Source of the DNA: Akkermansiaceae bacterium
GTDB lineage: Bacteria > Verrucomicrobiota > Verrucomicrobiia > Verrucomicrobiales > Akkermansiaceae
Assembly (NCBI GenBank): GCA_017798145.1
Contig: CP059069.1
Span: 62,001-126,000 of the forward strand
DNA length: 64,000 bases
Reading direction: 5' to 3'
Below the pieces are notes generated by a model. That model was given only the letters and a program-made list of their open reading frames with translations, did not search any database and was not told the origin of the DNA. Every line of letters begins with the position of its first letter. The stretch's first letter is position 1. The position numbers and the translations under genes were made by a program. Below, one piece after another: positions 33,947 to 37,178 of the stretch.

Positions 33947-34648
33947 CTACGGCCTGAAGAGCCTGTAAAACTGTTTTGGCAAGGTGGCAGGCAAGACGAC
34001 GGGATTCGTCGCCCCACTGGGAGAATTCTCCCACGAGACTGGAGACAAAATCAAGCTCTCCTGCAATACAAAGCCCGGAGAGGGCGGATCCCACGAGATT
34101 GTAACCTGTCCCGGCGCGGAAGAACGGATCGTGAGCTTGGGGATAACAAAATAGTTGAACTGGTAAAAGGCATCCGGCGTCCCATCCCCGGCCAATCCGG
34201 ATCCGTCGGCAATGATCCGAATCCGGTCCGCCGAGAGCCCCGTCGCCGAGACCGTCACGAAGTCGCCCCCCGGCAGTGCGAAACTGGCAAAAACGCCGCT
34301 GGGCGAAGTGGGATCCGGGAACACGACATTTTGGGAATAGGTTACGCCATCCAGCACGAAAGAAATCGATCCCGGCCCGATGTGCGCCCCGAAGTTGCGG
34401 AATGATATCGCGTAGTAGCTTCCGTAGCTGAGCGTAATGGTTGAGTCGCTTTCGTTCAAAAAGGGTTGTGCAAGGTCAGCCGTTGGCGTGAACGCCAGCG
34501 GGGAAGTGCTCCCATTGACAATGGTGTCGTTGATGTAGGCCCCCTCGTTTGAAGTCCAGGTAATGTCCGAAATGCCGGCAGCAATGGCCGGACCCGCCGC
34601 CACCCCAAAAGCCAGAGCCCACAATCCGATACGGTGATATGCATTCAT
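33947..34648 (-). CDS. Hypothetical secreted protein
   Basis: This 233-residue protein has a signal peptide (MNAYHRIGLWALAFGVAAGP, cleavage near AIAAG) and a beta-rich mature part. The C-terminal segment QVTISWDPPSPGFVLQE then PKQFYRLFRP is a tail typical of Verrucomicrobiota exported proteins (a fibronectin-like end following LQES...W). No catalytic motif is seen. The start at 34648 begins the signal; the longer frame upstream does not. Confidence 0.7.
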   Translation of the reverse strand: MNAYHRIGLWALAFGVAAGPAIAAGISDITWTSNEGAYINDTIVNGSTSPLAFTPTADLAQPFLNESDSTITLSYGSYYAISFRNFGAHIGPGSISFVLDGVTYSQNVVFPDPTSPSGVFASFALPGGDFVTVSATGLSADRIRIIADGSGLAGDGTPDAFYQFNYFVIPKLTIRSSAPGQVTISWDPPSPGFVLQESLILSPVSWENSPSGATNPVVLPATLPKQFYRLFRP

Positions 34649-34841
34649 CTGTAATCCATCTGTTCTGCCTGATCGATTGCTTGCGCCCTCCCCGGTATTG
34701 CAACAAGCCGATCGCTGATTGGCGGTTGGGGTCATGCAATCAATCTGGGGGCGAGATCCTAACGGGAAGTTGGTTGCTCCGTCCAGCCCAAAAGTCCCGC
34801 CGTAAGCGGGATCAGTTTGTCAAAACGACCTTTCGCGCTTT

Positions 34842-35252: not shown

Positions 35253-36257
35253 ATGCCGAGGGCGTTGCGACACGAGTATCCGGGCGCGGTCTATCATGTG
35301 ATGGCACGCGGCGACGGCGGGAAGGCGATCTTCGAGGGCGACGACGATCGCAAGGCTTTCCTTTTCCGGCTCGGGCAGGTTTGCGGGAGCCACGGCTGGC
35401 GCGTCCACGCGTGGGTGCTGATGGGGAACCATTTCCACCTCCTCCTCGAAACCCCGGAACCCAACCTCGTCACGGGGATGAAATGGCTGCTCGGCACCTT
35501 CAGCCAGGGATGGAACGCCCGGCGCTCGCGGCGCGGCCATGTTTTCCAGGGACGCTACAAGGCGGTGCCCGTAAGCGCGGCGGCGGGGAGTCCGCATTAT
35601 TTCCGGATCGTGGCGGATTACATCCACCTCAATCCCGCGCGGGCGGGGCTGGCGGGCGGGCAACGGGGCAAGCTCGTTTCGTGGAAATGGAGCAGCCTGG
35701 GCGATTACGCGCGGGGCAAGGGGCCGGGCTGGCTGGTCTTCGACAGGTTGCTCGCGGCGTTCGAACTCGCCAAGGACGGGCGTGGGAGGCGGGCATACGT
35801 CGCTTGGCTTGAGGAGCGGGCGGCTGACGGCGGGGATGGGATCGGCGCTGAGGCGATGGCGGCGCTGAAGCGGGGCTGGTATCTGGGTGACCCGTCCTTC
35901 GCCGACAAATTGCGCTCGCTGGTGGAGGGCAAGCGCAGCCGGGTGACCGGGGCCGATCCCGTGGCTCGTTCGCACGATGAGGAAGGGGCGGAGGATCTTG
36001 CCGTGCGGGCGTTGGCCGCAGTGGGGCTTCCGGCGGACACCGGATCGCTTTCGGAACTGCGAAAGGGGGATGGAGGCAAGATCCTTGTGGCGGCTCTCCT
36101 CCGGAAACACACATCGGCTGGCAACCGCTGGCTTGCACGCCGCCTCGCGATGGGGCACACGGGAAGCGTGAGCCGGCTGGTAGGGGCTTTCGGCAAGGGC
36201 AAGGCGAACCTCGCGAAACTGAGCGAACTGGAGAAAATGTTGAAATGCGACACCTGA
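35253..36257 (+). CDS. REP-associated tyrosine transposase (RAYT/Y1 Tnp)
   Basis: This 334-residue protein starts MPRALRHEYPGAVYHVMARG, the usual opening of Y1 transposases, and has the HUH motif GNHFHLLLETPE at about residues 67-78 and the YIHLNPARAG tyrosine motif near residue 125. Residues 130-334 are a RAYT-type C-terminal extension with a helical DNA-binding look. The stop codon falls inside the right inverted repeat (last residues KMLKCDT). RAYTs normally mobilise REP sequences; here the gene is flanked by its own inverted repeats. Confidence 0.93.
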   Translation: MPRALRHEYPGAVYHVMARGDGGKAIFEGDDDRKAFLFRLGQVCGSHGWRVHAWVLMGNHFHLLLETPEPNLVTGMKWLLGTFSQGWNARRSRRGHVFQGRYKAVPVSAAAGSPHYFRIVADYIHLNPARAGLAGGQRGKLVSWKWSSLGDYARGKGPGWLVFDRLLAAFELAKDGRGRRAYVAWLEERAADGGDGIGAEAMAALKRGWYLGDPSFADKLRSLVEGKRSRVTGADPVARSHDEEGAEDLAVRALAAVGLPADTGSLSELRKGDGGKILVAALLRKHTSAGNRWLARRLAMGHTGSVSRLVGAFGKGKANLAKLSELEKMLKCDT

Positions 36258-36458: not shown

Positions 36459-37178
36459 ATGAGATTCATTGCTGTTATTCTTACGGCCTCCGCAATCCAA
36501 GCCGATGCCTTCCAGCTTTTCCTAACAACCAAAACCGGCGAAACGATGAGCTTCGAGGTCGAGGCAAACGAGGCGATCGAGAACGTCAAAGCCAAGATTT
36601 TTGATGGGGAGTTGATCCCCCAAGACCAACAGCGGCTTTTCTTCGAGGGCGTATATCTCGAAGACGGAAATACCCTTGATTACTACAATGTGATGAAGGG
36701 GGCGACCCTCGATTTTGGCGCGCCTTTTGCAAATATCCATATTGCTGGAACGGGTGAGCTTCCAGCGGGGGGAGCCCGGGGAATCATCATTTCCGCTGGA
36801 AACGGAAGGAGCGACACGCTGATCTATTCGGATTCGCTGTCCATATCCTCCACCGCGCTCAACCCGTTCACGATCCGGCTCGCCGGTTGGGCAGGAGATG
36901 TTTTCGACGTCTCGATTGCCGGAACCTATACCCTGTTTGATTCGGACGCCGCTGTTGGGGCATTCGATCCGGATCAGTTCGTGATCGATACCAGCGGCCT
37001 AACCTTCAGCGGCACGCCCGGCACGTTTCAGATCGTGCAGGGAAGCATCGCCCTCGCCTACACCCCGATCCCGGAACCTTCAGCTGCGTGCCTAGCCGGG
37101 CTGATGCTCGGAATGATAGCAATTTTCCACCGCCCTAACCGCCCGACAGCTCGAAGATCCCAAGGCACTTGGCGATGA
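36459..37178 (+). CDS. Secreted ubiquitin-like domain protein with PEP-CTERM anchor
   Basis: This 239-residue protein has a 17-residue signal peptide (cleavage after ADA). The mature protein begins FQLFLTTKTGETMSFEVE, and residues 18-87 align without gaps to ubiquitin positions 1-70: about 39 of 70 identities by hand, including TIENVKAKI-like AIENVKAKIFD, IPQDQQRLFF and LEDGNTL. Ubiquitin K27, K29 and K63 are kept; K48 becomes Val, and the L8/I44/V70 patch becomes K/F/G. The C-terminal LRLRGG is absent. Residues 88-204 form a beta-rich domain; PEP at 205-207, a short hydrophobic stretch and RPNRPTARR give an exosortase-type PEP-CTERM tail. Function unknown; conjugation like that of ubiquitin is not expected. 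Confidence 0.85.
   Translation: MRFIAVILTASAIQADAFQLFLTTKTGETMSFEVEANEAIENVKAKIFDGELIPQDQQRLFFEGVYLEDGNTLDYYNVMKGATLDFGAPFANIHIAGTGELPAGGARGIIISAGNGRSDTLIYSDSLSISSTALNPFTIRLAGWAGDVFDVSIAGTYTLFDSDAAVGAFDPDQFVIDTSGLTFSGTPGTFQIVQGSIALAYTPIPEPSAACLAGLMLGMIAIFHRPNRPTARRSQGTWR

Follow-up and report, generated by a model that had tools for sequence, protein, structure and literature searches.

The window analyzed here, a stretch of 64,000 nucleotides from an Akkermansiaceae bacterium (contig CP059069.1 of assembly GCA_017798145.1, positions 62,001 to 126,000), carries at positions 36459-37178 a gene coding for a protein in which a signal peptide is directly followed by a ubiquitin domain, a spacer and a PEP-CTERM-like end. 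The N-terminal domain of this protein is a true relative of ubiquitin, and the same signal-peptide-plus-ubiquitin head is carried on unrelated surface anchors by many other bacteria, a bacterial group placing ubiquitin outside the cell that is apparently undescribed. Judged from its sequence, the product of the window gene could be an envelope or surface protein presenting a derived, non-covalent binding head for another ligand on a PEP-CTERM stalk, a reading in which we place moderate confidence.

The window gene encodes a ubiquitin relative with a predicted signal peptide

The open reading frame starts with ATG, encodes 239 residues and is free of internal stop codons. Its parts are the following:

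36459..37178, + strand: whole gene; 239 amino acids plus stop, with signal peptide, ubiquitin domain, spacer and PEP-CTERM-like end
36459..36509, + strand: signal peptide, residues 1-17, with final A-D-A; assigned from the sequence
36510..36719, + strand: ubiquitin domain, residues 18-87; assigned from PF00240, PDB matches, model, Foldseek and identities
36720..37064, + strand: spacer, residues 88-202; low model confidence, sub-threshold NCBIfam PEP-CTERM matches
37065..37175, + strand: PEP-CTERM-like sorting end, residues 203-239; PF07589 below cut-off, helix 209-223

Residues 18-87 were aligned without gaps to residues 1-70 of human ubiquitin, with 39 identities out of 70. The Pfam profile PF00240 matched the protein with an E value of 7.4e-15 and 54.9 bits (curated cut-off 25.4) and, in a search of the PDB, single-ubiquitin chains were matched at E about 2e-18 to 6e-18. 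An AlphaFold2 model, for which the window protein and 31 relatives were used as input, is confident in the ubiquitin part only (block mean predicted local distance difference test score, pLDDT, of 86-97 for residues 21-90), and the pLDDT is under 50 in 95 of the 239 residues. When this model was submitted to Foldseek, ubiquitins ranked top and single-ubiquitin targets were superposed over ~70-75 columns with a root-mean-square deviation of 0.5-1.1. Profile search, model and structure comparison all return ubiquitin for residues 18-87, in agreement with the fold proposed in an earlier note on this DNA.

The A-D-A directly before residue 18 matches, by eye, the site pattern of signal peptidase I, and 222 residues follow the predicted cleavage site. 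Secretion of the window protein through its signal peptide is supported by this site, whose position exactly at ubiquitin residue 1 in the sequence and in the ungapped alignment bears out the earlier claim of a secretion signal.

The recognition face of ubiquitin, formed by L8, I44, H68 and V70, reads K, F, D and G in the window copy. Four of the seven ubiquitin lysines (K6, K11, K33 and K48) are lost, K27, K29 and K63 are kept, and positions 71-76 read A-P-F-A-N-I in place of LRLRGG. The earlier note had read these residues correctly (K/F/G at 8/44/70, LRLRGG absent, K27, K29 and K63 kept, K48 lost), and its proposal that the window protein is unlikely to be conjugated is supported by the missing C-terminal LRLRGG and the changed face. 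All of the 14 positions taken to form the ubiquitin core are hydrophobic, seven of them being substituted.

At the C-terminus, PEP precedes a hydrophobic segment, for which the model gives a helix (209-223), and a tail rich in Arg; the PEP-CTERM-type end formerly claimed is recognizable by eye, with a sub-threshold Pfam score. Residues 151-229 resemble a second frame encoded in this genome (39%, E 5.1e-4), which itself ends in a PEP-CTERM match; a ubiquitin head may thus have been joined to a resident PEP-CTERM end. The exosortases expected with such an end were found in the source genome as two PF09721 matches above the cut-off, with the exosortase/archaeosortase signature TIGR04178 in both and TIGR02602 in one. 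In the same genome 63 PEP-CTERM matches are listed, 59 of them above the cut-off.

The same head occurs on unrelated anchors in many bacteria

The PF00240 profile was applied to genome samples of the phylum (387 genomes), of the genus (73) and of the phylum of Ruminococcus albus 8 (348). This profile alone gave matches in 14 of the 387 phylum genomes (17 matches), in 8 of the 73 genus genomes (10 separate genes) and in 5 of the 348 genomes of the last sample, two of these at E about 1e-30 and the others weak. A signal-like lead was present in 16 of the 17 phylum matches, the exception being locus L007, and in all 10 genus genes; the window gene belongs to both sets. From a scan of the genome_contigs collection the best 80 loci of at least 332 confirmed stretches were kept. 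By title, 17 of these 80 come from cultured strains, including R. albus 8, Dyella OK004, Rhodopirellula maiorica SM1, Cohnella phaseoli, Pseudovibrio denitrificans and Saccharibacillus sacchari. The viral_contigs collection gave 11 loci and the plasmid collection three matching records; on the finished plasmid of R. albus 7, one gene bears the annotation 'ubiquitin family protein'. No match was found in the phage collection. The binning of metagenome-assembled genomes (MAGs) may misplace some of these loci, the cultured strains and the R. albus 7 plasmid being independent of it. The rarity of bacterial ubiquitins put forward in the earlier note thus holds as a patchy occurrence within each of the three samples but not as a restriction to few bacteria, the distribution being taxonomically wide.

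The pooled set contains 126 ubiquitin frames, 117 of them distinct, and in 98 the domain is immediately preceded by a hydrophobic lead (by our own threshold); these 98 originate from the genome searches (25), genome_contigs (69) and viral_contigs (4). Of these 98, 94 have M as the first residue of ubiquitin, and in 96 the residue preceding it is A, G or S. Among the 19 distinct ubiquitin frames without lead, 10 have LRLRGG.

The anchors recognized by Pfam among the 98 are Autotransporter (20), IPTL-CTERM (6), dockerin (6), SLH (5), OMP_b-brl (3) and the T9SS tail Por_Secre_tail (3), counts which may overlap, and many tails are without recognized anchor. The layout of signal peptide, ubiquitin and PEP-CTERM seen in the window recurs elsewhere, in L016 with a PEP-CTERM match above the cut-off and in L028 just under it, and related layouts end in VPDSG-CTERM (L014) or IPTL-CTERM. 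In the model of L055, ubiquitin (24-94) is the sole globular passenger and is followed by a helix (102-140) and then by a beta-barrel. Ubiquitin is likewise the whole payload of short IPTL-CTERM members (e.g. L078 and L111) and of L051, L053, L066 and L110, which consist of signal peptide and ubiquitin alone, L066 ending in LRL.

Three of these short members, L051 (5962-6288; Dyella OK004), L053 (5974-6288; a Burkholderiales MAG) and L110 (4811-5137; a viral contig), encode a complete 76-residue ubiquitin with LRLRGG at the stop after the signal peptide, and from their sequences they look like secreted ubiquitins fit for conjugation. In the signal-bearing protein of L020 (461-1831, with L029) a second, degenerate ubiquitin-like repeat lies behind the first (PF00240 E 1.9e-4). 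Tandem paralogues with signal peptide, ubiquitin and Ig-like part are found in L005/L017 and L010/L019.

The genes flanking 63 relatives with long flanks were clustered, and clusters of at least three loci were considered. Seven were obtained, of which the four largest (60, 25, 11 and 10 loci) are taken to be the ubiquitin frames themselves with overlapping frames. The remaining ones are an ABC-transporter ATPase in four loci and the trios L051/L066/L110 and L055/L067/L079, and Pfam gave no family match for the example frames of both trios. No widely recurring neighbor gene, an immunity-like partner included, was present in such clusters among the 63 loci. In L055, L067 and L079 the common frame, without Pfam match, lies upstream of the ubiquitin gene (example L067:4795-5799).

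The head is largely conserved across the family and diverged in the window copy

The identity of the 98 heads to human ubiquitin 1-70 ranges from 55.7%, in the window copy, to 98.6%, with a median of 90%. L8 is kept in 89% of them, I44 in 84%, H68 in 93% and V70 in 76%, and the four-residue face as a whole in 76 of the 98 when conservative changes are counted. The loss of L8, I44 and V70 reported in the earlier note is thus true of the window copy, but it is particular to this divergent copy. The lysines K11, K27, K29, K33 and K63 are kept in 91-98% and K6 and K48 in 82-83%. At the Gly-Gly end, G75 is present in 24% and G76 in 15%. Ahead of the tail, the most variable positions are 16, 19, 22, 28 and 57.

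The number of nonsynonymous substitutions per nonsynonymous site (dN) was compared between ubiquitin and tail. The ratio of dN in ubiquitin to dN in the tail has a median of 0.27 over 75 tail-homologous pairs; among 24 pairs sharing no locus, ubiquitin has the lower dN in every one. In ten barrel-type pairs the tails are 23-37% identical and the ubiquitins 92-96% identical; less conserved barrel-type ubiquitins are found in the pairs with L079 (88-89%), in L074/L112 (88%) and in L044/L119 (68%). The ubiquitins of the PEP-CTERM subset (window, L028 and L016) have diverged from one another (0.40 for L003/L028 and 0.49 for L016/L028).

A ubiquitin tree of 110 rows and 72 columns lacks resolution, 1 of its 106 inner branches being starred. 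The secreted rows are intermixed in it with those of eukaryotic type, with 10 changes for a shuffled mean of 11.7, and 28 of 500 shuffles are as low; neither a single origin nor multiple origins are shown by these 72 columns. The end branch of the window row measures 1.37. Acquisition of the window ubiquitin from a eukaryote is plausible.

Comparison with described systems

The closest described relative of the window protein is BfUbb of Bacteroides fragilis. A prolyl isomerase was reportedly identified as a target of BfUbb in 2024. According to PMC5705921, BfUbb is secreted, the first residue of its mature form is exactly ubiquitin residue 1, and it is inhibitory to other strains of B. fragilis, an immunity protein being apparently absent. 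Like BfUbb, as described in PMC3352274 and PMC5705921, the window protein is bacterial, has its signal peptide abutting ubiquitin residue 1 and lacks a terminal Gly-Gly; BfUbb, in the same sources, is a free ubiquitin protein of 76 residues with 63% identity to human ubiquitin and demonstrated inhibitory activity. The window protein differs from it by its 56% identity to human ubiquitin, its 239 residues and the presence of a spacer and a sorting end.

Bacterial ubiquitin-like conjugation operons are cytoplasmic and have E1, E2 and peptidase genes as neighbors. A ubiquitin-like fold in bacteria is what they share with the window protein, which, unlike them, has a signal peptide and lies next to transposase and MBOAT genes. 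With PEP-CTERM proteins it has in common, by eye, the signal peptide, the PEP motif, the hydrophobic stretch and the basic tail, besides the exosortases and the many PEP-CTERM frames of the genome, and it is distinguished from them by its ubiquitin front domain and by a PEP-CTERM score under the Pfam cut-off. The order of signal peptide, ubiquitin and C-terminal extension is also that of a secreted ubiquitin-extension protein of Globodera rostochiensis which, according to PMC5705921, is a eukaryotic nematode effector with an extension of 12 residues and no surface anchor.

A 2024 review of extracellular ubiquitin lists two prokaryotic cases, Pup and the protein of B. fragilis (PMC10892293), and PMC3482391, in its available part, deals with peptidase toxins of the ubiquitin system and not with ubiquitin as a displayed domain. 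No description of bacterial ubiquitin fused to surface anchors was found in the titles and abstract beginnings of the open-licence literature, a scope within which novelty is not proven.

Possible roles of the displayed ubiquitin

The window protein would be exported by the Sec pathway, cleaved by signal peptidase directly before the ubiquitin domain and recognized at its PEP-CTERM-like end by a resident exosortase. In the family, the head may act as a display module that moves among anchors and binds non-covalently rather than being conjugated, because the recognition face is largely retained and most members have lost the Gly-Gly end. In the window, where the face is changed while the fold is kept, the head would be a derived one binding a different ligand. 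As its face and four lysines are lost and its core is kept, a binding head re-tooled for other use is a more likely description of the window copy than a mimic of ubiquitin. A wider proposal, made tentatively and rather on the unlikely side, is that surface ubiquitins of several phyla are one secreted head joined to local anchors and are held eukaryote-like by eukaryotic ubiquitin-binding partners, the window branch having been re-tooled.

Several observations weigh against the reading as a surface binding head. Pfam PF07589 scores the window end at 16.8 bits, under its cut-off of 20.7, and the spacer (88-202) is without confident AlphaFold2 model. The window gene yielded no close orthologue from which selection on it could be measured directly. 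For the family, the query of the genome_contigs scan included signal peptides and favors signal-bearing hits. The tails may be loosely constrained, which makes the comparison of dN between ubiquitin and tail a soft control, and the ratio exceeds 1 in 3 of the 75 pairs (1.09-1.71), all tandem Ig-type paralogues.

For the canonical members, the boldest interpretation is a mimicry directed at eukaryotes, in which the displayed ubiquitin would serve as decoy or adhesin for ubiquitin-binding proteins, deubiquitinases or receptors of protists, fungi, plants or animals, and the window copy would be a descendant with perhaps a partial role. The near-eukaryotic identity of the 98 heads (median 90%, maximum 98.6%) and the ten barrel-type pairs with conserved ubiquitins on diverged tails speak for it, as do H68 and K63, surface residues of no obvious folding role which are kept in 92-93%, and the complete ubiquitin with LRLRGG end behind the signal peptide of Dyella OK004. 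However, the recognition face is lost in the window copy, the other barrel-type pairs are less conserved, and the high identity is also explicable by repeated recent acquisition, the tree leaving the origins unsettled. We regard this mimicry as unlikely.

That the window gene is functionless, either decaying or newly captured, is improbable. Its identity to human ubiquitin is the lowest of the 98, transposase genes lie upstream, 65 of the 73 genomes of the genus, not all of which are complete, are without match, and its GC content at third codon positions is 0.62-0.63 for 0.67-0.80 in five nearby genes, which fits a later acquisition. Nevertheless, the frame, the signal peptide, the sorting end and the core are all intact. 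In neutral simulations to the divergence of the window copy (n=2000), the frame stayed open in 34 and the core stayed hydrophobic in 104; because frame and core are so rarely kept, the window copy was probably not free of constraint for most of its divergence.

An antagonism of bacteria in the manner of BfUbb, by which the exported head would harm sensitive relatives, through contact since it is anchored, seems the least probable: it has the BfUbb precedent, a family head starting at the same ubiquitin residue 1, members made of signal peptide and ubiquitin only and no recurrent immunity-like partner among the 63 loci, but bovine ubiquitin was inactive in the BfUbb inhibition assay (PMC5705921), so that toxicity does not call for a high identity to eukaryotic ubiquitin, and the window product is neither free nor 76 residues long.

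Ubiquitin is a textbook eukaryotic signal, and the papers cited here name one secreted bacterial case. If a recurrent module does export near-identical ubiquitin on lineage-specific anchors, the question becomes what reads ubiquitin outside a bacterium. Natural variants such as the window copy separate the ubiquitin fold from its recognition face, and the secreted ubiquitins retaining Gly-Gly might be used by eukaryotic enzymes.

Genome context of the window gene and frames without lead

The source genome is a single contig of 4.39 Mb, 98.5% complete, with one ubiquitin match in total. Contamination as the source of the window gene, raised in the earlier note, was rejected on account of this single contig, the bacterial neighbors and the bacterial sorting end. 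On the 5' side lie an IS91-type transposase, a NUDIX protein, a frame without Pfam match and an IS200-type transposase, two of which have the following positions:

33947-34735, - strand: frame of 262 amino acids without Pfam match, between the two transposase genes
35253..36257, + strand: IS200-type transposase gene immediately preceding the ubiquitin gene; PF01797 E 1.8e-6

The IS200-type transposase is a possible route of acquisition. On the 3' side are found an MBOAT gene on the opposite strand, PPK2 and a Na/Pi transporter; the 3' ends of the convergent MBOAT and ubiquitin genes overlap by 44 bases (37135-37178). The idea of a ubiquitin operon was dropped, as the eight nearby frames hold no partner gene: Pfam revealed among them no E1, E2 or peptidase, and one weak AAA-like match. 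The E2-like profile PF00179 matched 0 of 15 genomes but also 0 of 14 controls, and is no proof of absence. A scan found no promoter at the window gene, and terminator-like sites number one for 1.2 expected.

Among the frames without lead, L007 is a eukaryotic-type ubiquitin with LRLRGG in a genome of the same class as that of the window, and is likely a contaminant contig; contamination possibly accounts for other frames without lead as well. L099 and L103, from actinomycete MAG contigs, contain respectively three and two tandem ubiquitin genes in which no signal-like lead was detected, and in each of these genes ubiquitin is followed by a similar domain of ~150 residues.
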